Source of the DNA: a virus
IMG/VR virus record: IMGVR_UViG_3300025276_004551
Location: 1 to 30,385 of that record
Length of the DNA: 30,385 nt
Strand: one strand, 5' to 3'
The first letter of the stretch is position 1. Each line of letters begins with the position of its first letter. Shown piece by piece: positions 793-30,077 of this stretch. A program made the position numbers and the translations under genes. The notes beneath the pieces are model-generated. The model was not told the origin of the DNA. It ran no database searches and saw only the letters and a program-made list of their open reading frames with translations.

Positions 793-1242
793 CTATAAAT
801 CTGTAATATCTATATGTGTCCCAACCATCCTGATTGGTTTATTATTTTTATCCCACTCTATAACACTACCTCTACATAAGATTGTTATTTCGTGACCCTC
901 CTTGTGCGTGTACCTACCTATTGACCTATAAGGCAAAGTACCTTTACTATTAGCATGTTTATCAAACTTATCTAACGCTAATTTTAAATCTTCAGGATGT
1001 ATTAATGACATCCAAGACTCAGGTTTGTTTTCCATTTCGTCAACTTCGTAACCTAATTGTTTTTTAAACGCTGGACTAAGGTATTGGATATTATTAACAA
1101 CATCCCAATCCCAATAACCATCAGTAGTAAGTTCAAGAGTAAGTTCAAGAATTTCCCTCATCTTAAAAACTTCTGCGTCACGAATTGGTAATTTAGTTAC
1201 TAAGTTACGTAACTTTTTTATATTTTCTGACTCCCTGAACAT
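793..1242 (-). CDS. Stand-alone PAS domain protein (PAS_3 type)
   Basis: A 149-aa protein that is almost entirely one PAS fold. Residues about 28-149 carry the family pattern: DGYWDWDV, then a SPAFKKQLGYEVDEM segment, WMSLIHPEDL, and the C-terminal strands with HKEGHEITILCRGSVIEWD and IRMVGTHIDITDL. PAS domains bind small ligands or cofactors, or mediate protein contacts, and are normally fused to kinases, cyclases or HTH domains. No output domain is present here, so it must act as an adaptor or decoy, or on a separate partner. It lies 3 bp after the 271-aa gene in the portal operon, a surprising place for a sensor module. The PAS call is firm; the function is open. Confidence 0.85.
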   Translation of the reverse strand: MFRESENIKKLRNLVTKLPIRDAEVFKMREILELTLELTTDGYWDWDVVNNIQYLSPAFKKQLGYEVDEMENKPESWMSLIHPEDLKLALDKFDKHANSKGTLPYRSIGRYTHKEGHEITILCRGSVIEWDKNNKPIRMVGTHIDITDL

Positions 1243-7867: not shown

Positions 7868-8273
7868 TTTTATTTATTTTTTTACTGTTATCATAATTAT
7901 AATCTAAAACTAAATCTTTTTCATATAACCTATCTTCAATGTTAGTTACACTCTCACCAAACTTAAAATAAAGCCTAACCTCAGGGTATTCATCATAATC
8001 TAATAGATTCTCCCACCCAAGAGCTATAACTCCATCTACAGCATCAAAAACAGCAAACGTGTCACTATTCTGTATTAAGTCAAATTTTAAGTCTGTAACC
8101 AACTTACCAACTTTCTTAACAAATTCACCATTTGGTGGTCCTGGATTCCCAGAAGCTGGATACGCATCCCAATCATCACCGTGAATATCTTCTAACGTAT
8201 CTGAGAATAAAAACTCATATATGTTATTACCAGTCCAATCAGAACCTATTTCGTTTATATAAATTAATTTCAT
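7857..8273 (-). CDS. Conserved phage hypothetical protein
   Basis: A 138-aa acidic protein beginning MKLIYINEIGSDWTGNNIYEF and containing DDWDAYPASGNPGPP, LIQNSDTFAVFDAVDGVIALG and WENL. I recognise this pattern (an NIYEF-L/F-SD start, a SGNP-x-PP segment and a QNSD-x-F-V-x-DA-x-D core) from uncharacterised proteins of other large T4-like phages, but no function is known to me. The stop overlaps the GTG of the next gene, and the start overlaps the stop of the acidic gene by 1 bp, giving a tightly coupled series. Confidence 0.75.
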   Translation of the reverse strand: MKLIYINEIGSDWTGNNIYEFLFSDTLEDIHGDDWDAYPASGNPGPPNGEFVKKVGKLVTDLKFDLIQNSDTFAVFDAVDGVIALGWENLLDYDEYPEVRLYFKFGESVTNIEDRLYEKDLVLDYNYDNSKKINKSED

Positions 8274-9898
8274 TACTCTTCATCACTTATAACACTATTA
8301 AAATCAATATCACCATCAAAGTTTATTTCTTGAATTCTAATGTTACTAACATTAAACTTATTTTTTAATATAGCACTAAATCTATCAGCTTGCTCCCTTG
8401 TTGTAATTTTTTTACCTTTAATCTCAGCTAAAACAATTACTTCTTTACCGTCTTCACTATTAGCAGGAACTCCCCAGATAACATACTCATTAGACATACT
8501 AGCAGATTCATTTTCAAACTCTTCCATCTTTATCTTTGGCTTCACAGATGGCTTAGTTTCCCAAATCCTCTTCCTTTTAGGTGAAGCTGGTTTCACACCT
8601 GGCTTAACAACAGGAGGGGCAATACTAGGCTCAACTGTTTCATGTAATCTGTATAATATAAGTTCTTTCATAATGTTACTTTCTACAAACTTACTATTTT
8701 TTTCTGACTCTTGCAAATCCTCACCCACAATATCAGAAACTTTTTTATTGGACCACATTTTACAAGACCAATATCCCGCAGTTGTTTTATCTTTCTTTTC
8801 AGAACACTTATGTCTAGCTCTAAATGATTTTTTAGCTTTAGGATTATCCCTTCTAATTTCCATATTCTTATCACCGAAATTAACCTTAACTACATTCCCT
8901 TTGTCATTCTTAACATATACTTTGTATTTTTTAACATCACCAGGTTTAGGTTTATTCAACTCTACTTTCTTTCCTTTATATTCCCCCTCCATAAGCGACT
9001 CACTAGTTTTCTTTCGGCAAGAACCCTTATCACCCTCTTTAGTTCCAGGTACTCTTTCATACCCATCCCAACATGGACCACCTTCGTTTGTTAAAAAATC
9101 AGCAACTTCTTCAGCATCATCAGCTGATGTTGAAATATGGTCATCTGCCCACTTATGACCTTTTAATTTTTTCTCACGAGCCTCAACATCCATTGACAAT
9201 ATATCTTTAGTATCTTGTTCCATGTTTTTAAGGTTTATTGTCATAGTGTCCTCCTCATATATGCCTTCTTCCAACTCTTCTTCATCACCGAAACCCGACT
9301 CTTCTTCTGAACCACCATCAAGTTCATCTTCTTCTTTGTCTATCTCAGCATCAACATCCTTTTCTAAGCTATCATCATCTTTTTCAACACCAGAGGTCTT
9401 AACCTTTCTAATTATATCCTTCTGGTCTTCCTCATCCATTTCAGAAGTATGTGAAGCAGAAATTAAAGAATTAATCGCATATTTTTCTAAGTCGAAATCA
9501 GGCTCACCTCTTTCGTCACTATACTTTCTAAGTGAGGTACCTATCTTTCCAGCAAGTTGTTGTATATATTTCTCTGGGTCTTCATCTTCATCAGCCTCAA
9601 CTCCAGCATCGAATGGCTCATCGTCAAATGGCTTATCACTACCCTTATCATCTCCAAATGACGAATCACCACCTTCAGCATCACCGAATGCGTCAAGTGA
9701 TTCCTCTTCACCACCAGAAGCACCAAAAGCTGGTTCACTCTGTGGAGCGTCCAGCTTTAGCTTGTACTTTGTTTCTTCTTCTAGATTTTCGGAATTATCT
9801 TCCTTAATATTGTAACCACCATTTTCAGGTTGCTCGTCCTCACCTATTCCGCAACCCTTAACTGGTGCAAAAGCTGGTAAGTTATCTTCAGCTAGTCT
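8273..9898 (-). CDS. Downstream part of a frameshifted acidic head-type protein
   Basis: This frame is open from just after a TAA at 9911-9913 down to 8273. Its first ATG is only at 9439, about 154 codons in, and no GTG or TTG occurs before it. The start-less stretch is clearly protein-like: LAEDNLPAFAP, an acidic Gly/Asp-rich segment, then PEKYIQQLAGKIGTSLRKYS and a YAINSLISA segment that continues past the ATG without change. Later it has CWDGYERVPGT with GSCRKK, and KKYKVYVKNDKGNVVKVNFG followed by SFRARHKC and YWSCKMW, motifs I recall in prohead-associated proteins of T4-like phages. It therefore most likely continues the 435-aa frame by a -1 shift at the A10 run, giving about 975 aa. If unshifted, only 8273-9439 (388 aa) could be made. 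Confidence 0.75.
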   Translation of the reverse strand, partial: RLAEDNLPAFAPVKGCGIGEDEQPENGGYNIKEDNSENLEEETKYKLKLDAPQSEPAFGASGGEEESLDAFGDAEGGDSSFGDDKGSDKPFDDEPFDAGVEADEDEDPEKYIQQLAGKIGTSLRKYSDERGEPDFDLEKYAINSLISASHTSEMDEEDQKDIIRKVKTSGVEKDDDSLEKDVDAEIDKEEDELDGGSEEESGFGDEEELEEGIYEEDTMTINLKNMEQDTKDILSMDVEAREKKLKGHKWADDHISTSADDAEEVADFLTNEGGPCWDGYERVPGTKEGDKGSCRKKTSESLMEGEYKGKKVELNKPKPGDVKKYKVYVKNDKGNVVKVNFGDKNMEIRRDNPKAKKSFRARHKCSEKKDKTTAGYWSCKMWSNKKVSDIVGEDLQESEKNSKFVESNIMKELILYRLHETVEPSIAPPVVKPGVKPASPKRKRIWETKPSVKPKIKMEEFENESASMSNEYVIWGVPANSEDGKEVIVLAEIKGKKITTREQADRFSAILKNKFNVSNIRIQEINFDGDIDFNSVISDEE

Positions 9899-11199
9899 TT
9901 TTTTTTTACTTTAGATTCTTCAGACTCTTCAGGTTCTACTTCGTCAGTATCTATTTGTCCTACAACAGAGTCAAGTTCTGCTTTTTCTTTATCTGTGAAT
10001 GCAGGTTTCTCATGTTTATCTTTGTGAATTTTTTTCTTAAATTCACTATCTTCGTAAATTTCATTTACATTTTTATTTAAAGCTTCCATCATGATAGCTT
10101 TTTCAGACTCACCAAGAGATTCAAGAATATCATTAACTTTATCATCTTCAGTAGCTATTGAATCGATAACTTCATCCATTTCTTGAATTGCTCTAGCTAT
10201 TGAAAATCCTTTCTTGGCTTTAGGAGCTTGTTCTGAAATCGGCTCATTCATAAGTTCCGAATTTATTTTAGCGAAGAATAAACGTAATATTTTTTCGGCA
10301 TCAGGATTAAAGAAATTATTTGGATTAGGTTTAGAACGTAAAAATTCTAATTGACTATCAGCCTCGTTATTAAAAATATATTCAAGCATTGACGAGTCAT
10401 CCTCATGCTCTATCGACTCAATTAATAAATAAATAGCTGGTTTAGCGTACCTAACTAATTCAGGGTGCTCACTGTTAAATTGGTTAAAAATATTAATTAT
10501 TCTACCTTTTAAATCAGAATTCTCACCAGTAATCATTTCTTCAACTACATCTTTACGACACTTACAATCACCATCACACTTACATTCTTTGTATTCAATC
10601 ATTTTGTCGATAGCTGTTTCGTTTTCACTTAACTTAACCTTCTCCACGTCAGCTTCTGCTTTACCTGGTGCAACATTGTCACCAAAACCATCAGCATTAG
10701 AACCCTCTTTATTATCATACTTTAAGTTATCTCCTTTTTTGTCAATAACATACTCGTCACTGTCACCAATTGCCTTACTAGCACTTAATGTAGCGTTTGG
10801 ATTCATACCATGGTGTTCAGTAAGTAATCCATCACTCTTAAATGTGTCAAAACTTCCAGACTTACCTGCAGCTTCATTAATACTCATAAACTTTAAGTTT
10901 AATTGCTTAATTGCCTTTGCGTAAGAAGTATATACTTTATCTTTTTTATTTTGTAAACCACCCATATATTGGAAATCTTCTGTTACTAAGTTACTCTTAG
11001 CTTCAGAAACCTTAATATAATATTCGTGGTTTTCTCTAACAATAGCGTAAACATTTCCGTCAGGACCTTGCTTAGTTAATTCCACTACAGAACGTGTAAT
11101 TCCTTCATTAATAGGTGCACTACCCATTAACTCTCTCATTCTATTAAGCTTATCGTTACCCTTTAAGCCTGTTGGTTTTACTATATTTGAATTCTTCAT
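9892..11199 (-). CDS. Upstream part of the frameshifted head-type protein (zero frame, 435 aa)
   Basis: Starts at ATG 11199 and ends at TAG 9892-9894, a few bases after a run of ten A (9898-9907 on the plus strand as T). The N-terminal region carries LKGNDKLNRMRELMGSAPIN and the conserved-looking VVELTKQGPDGNVYAIVREN, HEYYIKVSEA and YMGGLQNKKD, which I recall from uncharacterised virion-type proteins of large phages. A Cys cluster (CKCDGDCKC) lies near residue 210. The C-terminus is acidic, then Lys-rich. I-N-E-G near residue 33 fits a prohead-protease site. Zero-frame translation gives this product alone; a -1 slip joins it to the 541-aa downstream part. A core, scaffold or internal head role is inferred. 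Confidence 0.8.
   Translation of the reverse strand: MKNSNIVKPTGLKGNDKLNRMRELMGSAPINEGITRSVVELTKQGPDGNVYAIVRENHEYYIKVSEAKSNLVTEDFQYMGGLQNKKDKVYTSYAKAIKQLNLKFMSINEAAGKSGSFDTFKSDGLLTEHHGMNPNATLSASKAIGDSDEYVIDKKGDNLKYDNKEGSNADGFGDNVAPGKAEADVEKVKLSENETAIDKMIEYKECKCDGDCKCRKDVVEEMITGENSDLKGRIINIFNQFNSEHPELVRYAKPAIYLLIESIEHEDDSSMLEYIFNNEADSQLEFLRSKPNPNNFFNPDAEKILRLFFAKINSELMNEPISEQAPKAKKGFSIARAIQEMDEVIDSIATEDDKVNDILESLGESEKAIMMEALNKNVNEIYEDSEFKKKIHKDKHEKPAFTDKEKAELDSVVGQIDTDEVEPEESEESKVKKKD
9898..9907 (-). other. A10 slippery run: probable -1 frameshift or slippage site
   Basis: The zero frame reads GTA AAA AAA AAA GAC TAG. The -1 frame opens only after a TAA at 9911-9913, so the change of frame must occur within about 20 nt that are nearly all A. 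A_AAA_AAA in the zero frame fits the X_XXY_YYZ rule. A 5-bp stem (AGCTG at 9889-9893 with CAGCT at 9872-9876, minus strand) begins 4 nt after the run. A homopolymer sequencing error would look the same. Confidence 0.6.
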
Positions 11200-13073: not shown

Positions 13074-13104
13074 TTGATTTTTTATAAATTGATTTGTATA
13101 TTTG
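13074..13104 (+). promoter_or_regulatory. Bacteroidota-type promoter for clpC
   Basis: TTG (13074-13076), 20-bp spacer, TATATTTG (13097-13104), a full consensus match. The -7 box contains the TTG codon at 13102 that would otherwise be a possible start, so translation must begin at ATG 13123. Its -33 lies only 3 bp from that of the divergent KTSC promoter. Confidence 0.85.
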
Positions 13105-13122
13105 CGTAAAGATATTATTAAT

Positions 13123-15714
13123 ATGAAAGGGAAGAGAGAAGTGGTTAAAAAAGTTAAGGCTATAATGAAATTAGCTCAAACAGAAGCTAAAAACAATGCT
13201 GACAGAGAGTTAAGACCAGAACATATCACATTAGCTATTCTGCAAGAAGAAACTAATAGGTCAAATAAAGTTATTAAAAGTATGGGTATTGACACACTTA
13301 AGTTGTATGACTTAGTTAGTCAACATTTAAGACACAACCAACTTAATAGTACTATATCAGATGTAAAGAAACTTAGAGCACCATTAGATACTAATAGCAG
13401 TAAAATAATGAAAGGTGTTGATGAGGAAGCTGAATCTATAGGTGATTTACATATCGATACAACACATATCATTCTTTCGTTATTAAGAGAAACAAAATCA
13501 CCCCTAACTAAATTGTTAGTTAAGAATAAATTAACTTATACCAAGTTTAAAAAAGCGATAGTTAATTACGAAAATCTTAATGATAAAGATTTAACAGATT
13601 ATGAAAAAGAAAAATTAAAAGACATGGAAAATAGATTGAATGAATTTAAAGAAGATATTGAAAACTCATTACCATTTGACGATGATGATAACGGAAACCC
13701 ACTAGGTGAAAGTGTTGGACCCAACAAAGGTAAGAGTAAACTAAAACGAAAAGAGACTAGTAAAACTCCAGTATTAGATAACTTCTGTAGAGACATATCT
13801 AAAGTTGCTACTGAAGGTGACCTTGACCCCGTAGTCGGTAGAGTTAAGGAGATTAAGAGAGTGTCTCAAATATTAGCTAGAAGAAAAAAGAACAACCCAA
13901 TACTCATTGGTGACCCAGGTGTGGGTAAGACTGCTATTGTTGAGGGTCTCACTATGCTTATTAAAGATAATAAGGCACCCAGAATTCTATTAGATAAAAA
14001 GATTTATTCATTAGATTTAGCATCAATAGTTGCAGGTACTAAATATAGAGGTCAGTTTGAAGAAAGAATGAAAGCTATTCTTGAAGAATTAAAAGAAAAT
14101 AAAGATATTATATTGTTTATTGATGAGATACACACTATAGTTGGTGCTGGAAACGCATCTGGAAGTATGGATGCTGCAAATATCTTCAAACCAGCATTAG
14201 CTAGGGGAGAAATTCAAGTAATAGGTGCAACAACACTTGATGAATTTAGAGAAAATATTGAAAAAGATGGTGCACTAACAAGAAGGTTCCAACAAGTATT
14301 AGTCGAAGAACCTACACTTGAAGAAACAACAGTAATACTTAAAAATATCAAGCAAAGGTATGAAGACCACCATAAAGTTATTTATACTGATGATGCAATC
14401 GAAGAATGTGTTAAGTTAGCAGATAGATATATAATGGATAGAGCTATGCCAGATAAAGCTATAGACGTGTTAGATGAAGCTGGTTCAACTACAAACATTA
14501 ATCATGACGCTCCTGAAAATATAAAGAAACTTGAAGAAAAATGTTTAGAATTAAAAGAAGAAAAGGTCTTTGTAGTTAAGAGTCAGAAATATGAAGAAGC
14601 TGCAAAATTAAGAGATGAAGAAAAGAAAGTTATAGAAACATTGAAAATTGAAAAAGATAAGTGGCTTGACAGTATGGATAAGAGTAGAACTACTGTTGAT
14701 GTTGACTTAGTTGCTGAGGTAGTTTCAATGATGAGCGGAATCCCAATTAATAAAATATCTTCACAAGAAACTAAAAAACTTGTAACAATGGATAAGGAAT
14801 TAACTGGTAGAGTTATCGGACAAGACGATGCCGTTGTTAAGGTTGTTAAAGCTATTAAAAGAAATAGACTTGGAATTAAAGACCAAACTAAGCCAATCGG
14901 CTCGTTCATATTCTTAGGGCCAACTGGTGTAGGTAAAACTTACTTAGCTAAACTACTTGCTGAATCAATATTTGGTGATTCGGACGCTCTAGTTAGAGTT
15001 GACATGTCAGAATACATGGAGAAACACGCTGTGTCTAGACTTATAGGTCCGCCTCCAGGGTATGTTGGTTACGAAGAAGGTGGTCAATTAACGGAGAAAA
15101 TTAGAAGAAAACCTTATTCAGTTATACTCTTTGATGAAATTGAAAAAGCGCATGATGATGTATTTAATTTACTTTTACAATTACTTGATGAAGGTCAGTT
15201 AACTGACGGTCTTGGTAGAAAAGTGAACTTTAAAAATACACTAATCATCCTTACATCTAATGCTGGTGTTCAACAACTTAATAACTTTGGTAAAGATATG
15301 GGTTTCAAAACAAAAGCTACTGTTGTTAATGAAGAAGAGAAAGTTCGTTCAATTATTAGTAAGGAACTTAAGAAGAAATTTAAACCTGAATTCCTTAATA
15401 GGATTGATGATACAATTATATTTAATTCATTAAATCAAAATGATATTCATAAAATTATTCATATGGAATTGGATAAATTAAAAGCTAGGGTTAAAGAATC
15501 TTTAAATATTACACTTAAGATTAATAAAACCGCTATTGAACATGTCGCAGTACAAGGTTACGACAAGGCTTATGGCGCTAGACCGCTTAACAGAGCTATT
15601 CAAAATTATATTGAAGACCCAGTAGCTGATGAAATACTTAGTGGTAATTTCAAGGATGGTGATACAATTAAGATATCATTTGATAAAAAAACTTCAAAAT
15701 TGGTATTATCTTAA
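13123..15714 (+). CDS. clpC: ClpC-like AAA+ protein unfoldase
   Basis: A ring-forming ATPase that unfolds proteins and, in bacteria, feeds them to ClpP. The 863-aa product has a duplicated Clp-N domain (1-150), an acidic linker, first AAA domain with Walker A GDPGVGKT (263-270) and Walker B IILFIDEIH (329-337), a short middle region with UVR-like AAKLRDEEKKVIETLKIEKD (about 493-512), and second AAA domain with Walker A GPTGVGKT (599-606) and pore loop GYVG. The short UVR-like middle region makes it ClpC, not ClpB. MGF (726-728) sits where ClpC proteins carry their ClpP-binding loop. The C-terminal GYDKAYGARPLNRAIQ segment resembles Flavobacterial ClpC, suggesting host origin. It has its own promoter and terminator. 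No clpP is in the window. Confidence 0.95.
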   Translation: MKGKREVVKKVKAIMKLAQTEAKNNADRELRPEHITLAILQEETNRSNKVIKSMGIDTLKLYDLVSQHLRHNQLNSTISDVKKLRAPLDTNSSKIMKGVDEEAESIGDLHIDTTHIILSLLRETKSPLTKLLVKNKLTYTKFKKAIVNYENLNDKDLTDYEKEKLKDMENRLNEFKEDIENSLPFDDDDNGNPLGESVGPNKGKSKLKRKETSKTPVLDNFCRDISKVATEGDLDPVVGRVKEIKRVSQILARRKKNNPILIGDPGVGKTAIVEGLTMLIKDNKAPRILLDKKIYSLDLASIVAGTKYRGQFEERMKAILEELKENKDIILFIDEIHTIVGAGNASGSMDAANIFKPALARGEIQVIGATTLDEFRENIEKDGALTRRFQQVLVEEPTLEETTVILKNIKQRYEDHHKVIYTDDAIEECVKLADRYIMDRAMPDKAIDVLDEAGSTTNINHDAPENIKKLEEKCLELKEEKVFVVKSQKYEEAAKLRDEEKKVIETLKIEKDKWLDSMDKSRTTVDVDLVAEVVSMMSGIPINKISSQETKKLVTMDKELTGRVIGQDDAVVKVVKAIKRNRLGIKDQTKPIGSFIFLGPTGVGKTYLAKLLAESIFGDSDALVRVDMSEYMEKHAVSRLIGPPPGYVGYEEGGQLTEKIRRKPYSVILFDEIEKAHDDVFNLLLQLLDEGQLTDGLGRKVNFKNTLIILTSNAGVQQLNNFGKDMGFKTKATVVNEEEKVRSIISKELKKKFKPEFLNRIDDTIIFNSLNQNDIHKIIHMELDKLKARVKESLNITLKINKTAIEHVAVQGYDKAYGARPLNRAIQNYIEDPVADEILSGNFKDGDTIKISFDKKTSKLVLS

Positions 15715-17788: not shown

Positions 17789-19273
17789 CTACATCATTGT
17801 TGACGGTAACAACTTCCTTAACTTTTTGTAATTAGCTTCCCCAATCTCTTCACGTCTAAAAGCAATCCTATGTAGACTACCACCGTTAGACTTATCAAGA
17901 TACTTAATATCATCAGGTATCGACTTTATTTTATTCCCAATAAGATTAATAAATATTAAATTCTTTAATTTACCAATCTCACTAGGAATTGTCGTTAAAT
18001 TATTATCTGGTATTAATAATTCCTGAAGAAACTCAAGACTCCCAATAGATGGGTGCAATTCAATAAGTTTAGCTTTTTTTATTATAAGCGTGGTAAGATT
18101 CTTAAATCTAGATACATCAGGTAACTTAGGGACATCTCTGTTAGTGAACCTTATTATAGGAGAGTATTCTTCAATAATATCAAATAAAGCCTCTGTCCAA
18201 CCAAATTTAACTAAGTAATCAATATAAACATTATCAGTTGTGTTTTTGTTTTTCTTCATCTTAGCCATAGTTGTCAATTCTTCATGGATAAAGTTTGATA
18301 TCCCCTCACTATTTAACAATACTGTCTCAAAAAAGTTGTTAGACTTACTCTGTATTCTATCCCTAACCTGCCTACTCTCAAAATGTAATTGGTACAATGA
18401 ATCACTCTTCAAAGTTCCTGTAAAAAATCTATTATCTATTACGATGTAAATATCAGACTTTTCACCATTAGGTTTACGATACTTATTATTCCCTCTATAA
18501 AACTCAAACATATCACCCTTACTCTTAGAGGTACACCACCCAACAAACTCATCAAAAATTAAACTAGCCTCTTCACACTTAGGTACATACAATGTAAATC
18601 GCCTATCTCTAACTGGAATCTCAGCCTTACCACACTCAACAAAACTATTAATTAATTTTTCAATATTAGAAGGGTCTTTTTCAATAAATGGGTCAACAGC
18701 GTCATATAATTGAGATAACGATTTATATTGATTTATATCTGTGGGGTCTTTAACACCCTTTAAAATAAAACTATTTGCCGAAAGTTCTTTAAATTTCTTT
18801 TTTCTCTTATTCTTTTCAAATACATTTAAATAATCTTTAGCTAATGGTAAGTCTTCACTAAAAAATCTTTCAGCTTCATCAATCTCTCCACTCTTAATGT
18901 ATCTAGTGAATGTATTAAGCATCCATTGGGTGTACATCTTATTCTTAGAAGGGTCAGCGTTAACCATCTTATTAAACACATCAAAAGATATATCAACCCT
19001 AGGCTTCTGATTACCATATTGCACATCAATAACGCCAGAATCTTCTTTAGTAGTTTTAGTTATAGTAGGGTGTAATTGATTTCCGTTTAAATCAAAAGCT
19101 TCATTTGATACCAAAGCAAATATGACATCATCCTTAGACGCAAGGTTAGTAAATATACGGCGATTTAGTGTTAAGTAAGCCACAAGTTCACTCATCCCTT
19201 CATCGGTATTATCAAATACATTATACTTTTCAGCTAAAAATGACAACCTATCAATAGACTTATTATTACTCAT
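17789..19273 (-). CDS. Leucine-rich-repeat protein with WCT-motif central region
   Basis: A 494-aa protein. The C-terminus (about 385-465) has at least three 23-residue leucine-rich repeats of the form L-x-x-L-x-x-L-x-I-x-x-N-x-L-x-x-I-P-x-x-I, for example LQELLIPDNNLTTIPSEIGK. LRRs are protein-binding surfaces and are rare in phages. The central part (about 240-310) reads GWCTSKSKGDMFEFYRGN, IYIVIDNRFF, LYQLHFESRQVRDR, a WCT plus Y/F-rich pattern I recall in large-phage and plasmid hypotheticals. The N-terminal 200 residues are helical and unassigned. It is monocistronic, with a consensus promoter and a strong terminator, like a regulated early or host-interaction gene. A host-target-binding role is inference. 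Confidence 0.75.
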   Translation of the reverse strand: MSNNKSIDRLSFLAEKYNVFDNTDEGMSELVAYLTLNRRIFTNLASKDDVIFALVSNEAFDLNGNQLHPTITKTTKEDSGVIDVQYGNQKPRVDISFDVFNKMVNADPSKNKMYTQWMLNTFTRYIKSGEIDEAERFFSEDLPLAKDYLNVFEKNKRKKKFKELSANSFILKGVKDPTDINQYKSLSQLYDAVDPFIEKDPSNIEKLINSFVECGKAEIPVRDRRFTLYVPKCEEASLIFDEFVGWCTSKSKGDMFEFYRGNNKYRKPNGEKSDIYIVIDNRFFTGTLKSDSLYQLHFESRQVRDRIQSKSNNFFETVLLNSEGISNFIHEELTTMAKMKKNKNTTDNVYIDYLVKFGWTEALFDIIEEYSPIIRFTNRDVPKLPDVSRFKNLTTLIIKKAKLIELHPSIGSLEFLQELLIPDNNLTTIPSEIGKLKNLIFINLIGNKIKSIPDDIKYLDKSNGGSLHRIAFRREEIGEANYKKLRKLLPSTMM

Positions 19274-28667: not shown

Positions 28668-30077
28668 ATGAGTGAAATATGGAAAAGAATACCTGGATTT
28701 GAAAATAAGTATGCTGTTTCTAATCATGGTCTAGTGAAATCCTTTATAAATAACCCAAATGGGGAAATCGTTACGTTTGTTATTGGTACCCATGGTTATT
28801 ATCTTAGGAGTATGAGAGATACCAAAGGTAAGGTAACTTGCGTTAAACTACATAGGGTAGTCGCTAAAATGTTTATACCAAACCCTAACAACCTACTAAC
28901 TGTAAATCATATAGACGGAAATAAGTTAAATAACCATGTGGATAACCTAGAATGGGTAACCCTACAGGATAATATACAACATGCAATAGATACCAACCTT
29001 AGAAAGAGAAGTTATGTTCAAAAACTTAATGAAAATTATGTTAGAGAAATAAGAAGTAAATATGAAACTACAAATATTACGATTAAAGAATTAGCTACAG
29101 AATATAAGGTAGCATGGGGTGCTATAAATAAAATATTAAGATATAATACTTGGTTTAATATTGACCCAGATTTAAAGTACACCTATAGGGTGAATAGAAT
29201 AACCAAAAAAGAACACAGAGAATGGAAATACTCAAAAAACACTAAACCTCCAAAGAAAATAATACCAAAAACACCATGGGGTAAATTAGGTATTAGTGAA
29301 GATGAATTAAAAACCCTAGTCATAGAATTTGTTAATGGATTAGAAACCATTTATGAATTCTGTGAAGTAAAAAGCTTAAACGTATACCAATTTAAAAAAT
29401 ATATAAGTGGTATGGTGGAATTACCTATAATATTAAATGAAGGTGAAATTAAATTCAAGTATAGAGCATACATACTAACTACACATGGTCGAGTATGGTC
29501 ACTATTAGGTAAACACAGGGTGAACACACACATAGTCCATAACCAAAGAGTTGGTTCAATTATAGGTGCTAAGTTCTTGGATAAACCTGAAGATGGTAAA
29601 TATATCGGGTTTAAAAATGGTGATATAACTAACACAAATATTAATAACTTATTCTGGATACGAAAGAAAAAAAGAATAAAAATAAAAATAGATACAGTAA
29701 TAATACCTGAAGATACTATTGAAAATATTAAAAGAGATTATATATACGGTGGATTTAGATACTTAGATATAACTGAAAAATATGGATACACAATACACTA
29801 TATAAACAAAACACTTAAGGGGGTTGAAAGAATAGTAAAACCAAAAACTAACACCAAAAAAACTAAGCACCCAAATAGATTTAAATTAACGCAAGATATA
29901 TGTGAAAAAATAAGACATCAGTTTATATATGACAACTTAAATGTAAATAATATGTCTCATAAGTATTCACTAACTAAGACTACCATATATGAAATACTTA
30001 ACAATAAGTTACTTCCTAGTCAAAATCAAAAAAGCGCTATACTAATTAAACGAGATATAAGACACTATAAAAAATAA
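28668..30077 (+). CDS. NUMOD4-HNH homing-type endonuclease with a degenerate second copy
   Basis: A 469-aa protein. The N-terminal module has NUMOD4 (EIWKRIPGFENKYAVSNHG) and an intact HNH (KLHRVVAKMFIPNP, then VNHIDGNKLNNHVDNLEWV), residues 1-100, followed by an HTH-like NITIKELATEYKVAWGAINK. A second copy starts near 260: YRAYILTTHGRVWS replaces NUMOD4, and YIGFKNGDITNTNINNLFWI aligns with the HNH but lacks the catalytic His. Two more HTH-like segments follow (about 345-385 and 410-450). Free-standing NUMOD4-HNH proteins cut DNA to spread their own gene; the second copy may serve DNA binding only. Confidence 0.85.
   Translation: MSEIWKRIPGFENKYAVSNHGLVKSFINNPNGEIVTFVIGTHGYYLRSMRDTKGKVTCVKLHRVVAKMFIPNPNNLLTVNHIDGNKLNNHVDNLEWVTLQDNIQHAIDTNLRKRSYVQKLNENYVREIRSKYETTNITIKELATEYKVAWGAINKILRYNTWFNIDPDLKYTYRVNRITKKEHREWKYSKNTKPPKKIIPKTPWGKLGISEDELKTLVIEFVNGLETIYEFCEVKSLNVYQFKKYISGMVELPIILNEGEIKFKYRAYILTTHGRVWSLLGKHRVNTHIVHNQRVGSIIGAKFLDKPEDGKYIGFKNGDITNTNINNLFWIRKKKRIKIKIDTVIIPEDTIENIKRDYIYGGFRYLDITEKYGYTIHYINKTLKGVERIVKPKTNTKKTKHPNRFKLTQDICEKIRHQFIYDNLNVNNMSHKYSLTKTTIYEILNNKLLPSQNQKSAILIKRDIRHYKK

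Follow-up and report, generated by a model that had tools for sequence, protein, structure and literature searches.

A conserved run of ten adenines at a probable recoding site in a head-region gene of uncultured T4-like phages

The window analysed here is a stretch of 30,385 bases from a virus record, and all the genes concerned lie on its minus strand (Table 1). Two frames, p1 and p2, overlap by 19 nt (9910-9892), and the overlap contains an A10 run at 9907-9898, which is the only run of at least ten in the window and carries an A_AAA_AAA heptamer in register. Because the -1 frame is closed upstream by the TAA at 9913-9911, any switch from p1 to p2 would be confined to these 19 nt with the A10 run. 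The first ATG, GTG or TTG of p2 is the ATG at 9439. The original prediction had read the locus as one long head-type gene split by a -1 shift at the A10 run; its coordinates, the lengths of 435 and 975 aa and the position of the first start were all correct, and the slippery heptamer that it named is present in the correct register.

Table 1. Features of the p1/p2 locus, in coordinates of the window.
Feature	Position	Strand	Remarks
p1, zero frame, 435-aa product	9892..11199	-	stops at TAG 9894-9892
p1 N-terminal part, about 130 aa	10810-11199	-	kept in every relative
TAA closing the -1 frame upstream of the run	9911..9913	-	confines the switch to 19 nt
A10 run, putative slip site	9898..9907	-	A9-A12 in 113/113 distinct relatives
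TAG closing the 435-aa frame	9892..9894	-	3 nt past the run; same 3-nt spacing in 63/109 relatives
p2, -1 frame	8273..9910	-	545 codons open; would add about 540 aa to give a 975-aa fusion
KYKLKL motif and conserved RNA hairpin	9726..9769	-	starts 128 nt past the run in the window; motif/hairpin also in 95 relatives
Hairpin stem (window)	AAAGCUGG 9758-9751 pairs with CCAGCUUU 9733-9726	-	
p2 best-conserved part, residues 90-174	9389..9643	-	predicted helical; precedes the first ATG except for the last residues
p2 RARHKC-type domain (phrog_7595), residues 304-396	8723..9001	-	present in unrelated phage proteins too

The p1/p2 genes lie upstream of the large terminase and a T4-type portal in the window, with ThyA, small ORFs, terminase and portal as neighbours. 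In L322, a related record of 362 kb (the largest reach 368 kb), p1 and p2 are followed by three ORFs, then by terminase and portal, a further group of small ORFs, the protease, a scaffold-like acidic ORF and finally capsid. All 18 of the larger related records have p1, and portal, S77 protease and gp23-type capsid are all present in 17 of these 18. The placement of p1/p2 in a T4-like head module is thus supported by synteny, which also backs the "head-type" label initially given to the gene. Other features of these records are as follows. The large terminase of L322 (9597-12596, minus strand) is 999 aa long with an apparent intein-like insertion, and that of the window has 622 aa. A 149-aa ORF with a PAS fold stands among the head genes of the window (793-1242, minus strand), and an 870-aa Clp-type AAA+ ATPase gene (phrog_4871; 13102-15714, plus strand) is divergent from them. 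A 494-aa ORF (17789-19273, minus strand) has leucine-rich-repeat-like matches under the Pfam cut-off, and a 469-aa ORF (28668-30077, plus strand) with NUMOD4 and HNH endonuclease domains is homing-endonuclease-like.

Relatives were collected from viral contigs (IMG/VR) by querying with p1 and p2 separately, at first as the frames themselves and afterwards as alignments, at 80 loci per search. This gave 256 loci with both frames, from which 113 distinct junctions were compared; 4 and 6 loci had one frame alone, contig ends being a likely reason. The contig L002, 100% identical to the window and possibly derived from related material, was left out of the independent count. The relatives share ancestry, so that 113 junctions do not amount to 113 independent cases. 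The second frame is -1 relative to p1 at 109 of the 113 junctions, and when the p1 N-termini were clustered at 70% identity, 24 of the 26 clusters were purely -1. The run is A9 in seven junctions, A10 in 95, A11 in ten and A12 in one, and none of the 113 has fewer than nine A. It begins at codon phase 2 in most junctions, with phases 0 and 1 also seen, so it is the run together with the -1 offset that is kept, and no particular series of Lys codons. The searches used p1 and p2 peptides and not the run, and its presence at all junctions is therefore not a product of their construction. As background, the related loci collected first contain, in 568 kb outside the site, only 32 A runs of at least nine, six of them of at least ten. 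On the evidence of this conservation, a chance origin of the run at the junction is excluded.

The only relatives with an uninterrupted frame are L179 and L270, which are nearly identical, and L180, about 95% identical to both, and all three carry A11. In these contigs one A fewer would lead to a TAA 3 nt past the run and one A more to a TGA shortly after, so that they form a mirror image of the A10 arrangement, although they represent one lineage. An alignment of homologues had been suggested as a check on whether they are fused or keep the same run; all 113 keep A9-A12, and the outcome that would have spoken against the proposal, close relatives in a single frame that lack an A run, was not met with, since the uninterrupted ones retain A11. 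A single contig, L049, has A9 with the opposite frame offset, and an error cannot be distinguished there from a true length variant.

We then considered whether p2 belongs to the same protein as p1. Between the window virus and its close relative L004, the first 151 p2 codons, all of them ahead of the ATG, gave a dS of 0.207 and a dN of 0.051 (dN/dS about 0.25), and between L056 and L057 119 p2 codons gave a dS of 0.715 and a dN of 0.079 (dN/dS about 0.11). To judge from these substitution rates, p2 upstream of its first ATG is under purifying selection, in agreement with the earlier observation that the frame looks protein-like before position 9439. In addition, no ATG, GTG or TTG is found between the run and KYKLKL in 77 of the 103 relatives with a recognisable motif. 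Since p2 is conserved without a start and has a low dN/dS, independent initiation can be no general explanation. The idea of two separate proteins, with p2 made from its own start codon by reinitiation, is hardly credible to us: an ATG or TTG does occur shortly past the p1 stop in some relatives, but in the window the first start comes only after about 154 conserved codons, three relatives are fused, and the start-free interval and the dN/dS lead us to reject it for most relatives. Somewhat less improbable, yet still very unlikely, is phase variation, in which the run would change length during DNA replication and the long form would be switched on or off between genomes. A runs are unstable in replication, A9, A11 and A12 variants exist and one lineage is fused; however, switching would be expected to spread the states, whereas 109 of 113 junctions are in one -1 state and changes in run length are offset by flanking changes that restore it, and we reject this as the main reading. 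The suggestion that a homopolymer sequencing or assembly error has broken one plain frame, left open by the original prediction, retains virtually no weight. Some sequencing chemistries are prone to errors at runs of ten and L002 lends no independent support, as it may come from related material, but the same -1 offset and the same run recur in distinct viruses with 43-92% protein identity, which refutes an error for the family; single contigs such as L049 could still be errors. That one gene is recoded to give both a 435-aa protein and a 975-aa fusion, as had been proposed, is strongly supported by the 109 junctions, the three fused relatives and the selection ahead of the ATG, although the products have not been demonstrated.

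A second conserved element lies inside the p2 coding sequence, at the KYKLKL motif. The 66 nt from KYKLKL onwards, compared with synonymous resamplings of the same protein, gave a mean z of -3.31 over 95 distinct sequences, with 75% below -2, against -0.1 to -1.0 for neighbouring segments in the same test. Codon choice reflects this directly: CTG makes up 1% of the Leu codons in the p1/p2 genes, yet it accounts for 32 of 102 codons at the final position of the motif. In an alignment of 28 stems (25 distinct), 93% of the cells pair, and A-U to G-C and C-G to G-C changes occur on both sides; the rows were chosen for pairing, such that this count is biased towards structure, a bias from which the resampling test is free. 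The hairpin is under selection at synonymous sites, with some compensatory changes. It is unlikely to act as a classical frameshift stimulator, because in relatives it lies anywhere from 13 to 260 nt past the run and follows the protein motif.

Programmed recoding at the A10 run, with an RNA polymerase as the most likely agent, is the explanation that we consider probable, the agent being inferred in the absence of RNA, protein or read-level data. Under this proposal, mRNA with ten A would be decoded normally up to the TAG past the run, yielding the 435-aa protein, and a fraction of events would shift by -1 and yield the 975-aa protein, with the same N-terminus followed by the 540-aa acidic p2 region. 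The shift would arise as the polymerase slips on the run and leaves one extra A in some mRNAs. As no Rpb2-type polymerase subunit was found to be encoded in 11 related records, which may be incomplete, the slipping enzyme would be that of the host. The original prediction had offered frameshifting and polymerase slippage side by side; recoding as such has held, and of the two agents the polymerase is favoured but not shown. Within programmed recoding we prefer it to the ribosome with some assurance, though by inference, because the run never falls below nine A, may start in any phase and has no conserved adjacent stem, and because a mirror lineage with A11 exists.

The competing possibility, programmed -1 ribosomal frameshifting on A_AAA_AAA of the kind known from E. 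coli dnaX and lambda G/GT and possibly aided by a weak SD-like word upstream, is a rather unlikely one that cannot be set aside. The heptamer stands in the correct register and open to the ribosome, the offset is invariably -1, and the stretch upstream of the run is enriched in weak SD-like words (37% vs 19% in controls), although strong ones are at control level, without excess. A ribosomal -1 site needs only seven bases, for example A_AAA_AAG. AAG represents 20% of the Lys codons in the p1/p2 genes, yet none of the relatives (113 junctions) uses a shorter or AAG-interrupted run, and since seven bases would suffice for the ribosome, the minimum of nine counts in favour of the polymerase. This minimum equals the length of the RNA-DNA hybrid of bacterial RNA polymerase, which is 9-10 bp, and runs of nine A slip efficiently in vivo (PMC5009743); dnaX genes with A10 have been judged to act at transcription (PMC3711429). 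Neither is structure found next to the run: the 5-bp stem noted originally does form in a fold of the single sequence, but not in the close relative L004, and there was no enrichment of RNA structure at +5..+54 past the run (mean z -0.49, 109 relatives). A further point against the ribosome, from a reading of the frames in the A11 lineage, is that a -1 step there would not yield the short form through its conserved nearby TAA, though it would reach another nearby stop. Stops in the third frame gave no discrimination as a test of polymerase slippage, controls being stop-rich as well. Besides the heptamer and the weak SD-like words, the conserved downstream hairpin and the fact that A11 is one lineage also count against slippage by the polymerase.

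For p1 and the p2 core, Pfam and PHROGs yielded nothing usable, and low-confidence models (pLDDT 62-66) compared with PDB folds fared no better; two BFVD matches are uncharacterised phage proteins. We were unable to find p1 in annotated phages or in GTDB genomes, or the p2 core of a distant relative in annotated phages, where p2 is represented only by the domain common to other proteins. This RARHKC-type domain recurs, for example, in small ORFs near cytidyltransferase genes of HTVC008M and Melnitz. Both products are acidic. [LI]xE triplets occur at three positions of p1, in 83-96% of relatives, and in 101 of 103 also just ahead of KYKLKL; they would suit processing by a gp21-type protease, an inference to be taken with care as such triplets are common in acidic proteins. 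As a working guess, p1/p2 is an internal head or neck protein of two lengths.

Transcriptional slippage in bacteria is known from Citrobacter rodentium tssM1 (A11), Yersinia pseudotuberculosis tssM3 (A9), Thermus dnaX and Shigella mxiE and spa13 (PMC4256274, PMC5009743, PMC3711429). With these genes p1/p2 shares a run of 9-11 A or T, a nearby stop and two lengths with a common N-terminus; unlike them, it is a phage gene of unknown function in which slippage is only inferred. In tssM1 the long form arises via slippage and in tssM3 the short form (PMC4256274), and this pair resembles the A10 and A11 relatives, which show both arrangements. In phages, ribosomal -1 frameshifting takes place in the head genes of T3/T7 (gene 10) and Lactobacillus phage A2 (PMC5009743), where, as inferred here, a -1 shift late in a gene of the structural region extends the protein at its C-terminus; however, p1/p2 is separate from the capsid gene, its extension exceeds the first product, and the shift would occur on a long stretch of A that has no clear stimulator beside it. 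The tail assembly chaperone G/GT of long-tailed phages is likewise a morphogenesis gene with -1 recoding, T4 being named as the exception that lacks it (PMC5009743), but p1/p2 sits with terminase, portal and capsid genes and not beside the tape measure gene, and no search that we made related it to a G/GT protein. By analogy, p1/p2 would work like a recoded gene of the transcriptional tssM/dnaX type; it shares its logic with the phage head-gene and G/GT frameshifts but belongs to neither. In the open-access literature, subscription papers being outside our scope, we found neither p1/p2 described nor a phage morphogenesis gene with programmed polymerase slippage; one phage precedent is Campylobacter phage CPt10, in which slippage has been suggested for a methyltransferase (PMC2853527).

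Automatic annotation splits p1/p2, so that the long protein of a widespread group of environmental phages would escape it. Should the polymerase be the agent, this would be a phage case of a protein ratio fixed at transcription, and the record of run lengths, never below nine A at 113 junctions, would be a natural test of the required length. No role is known for the RNA hairpin at KYKLKL. We regard the chances as evenly balanced that this group of uncultured T4-like phages, some of them larger than 350 kb, uses polymerase slippage on the conserved A10 run to set how much of each of two forms of a head-region protein is made, a control in which the conserved hairpin of the same frame may take part.
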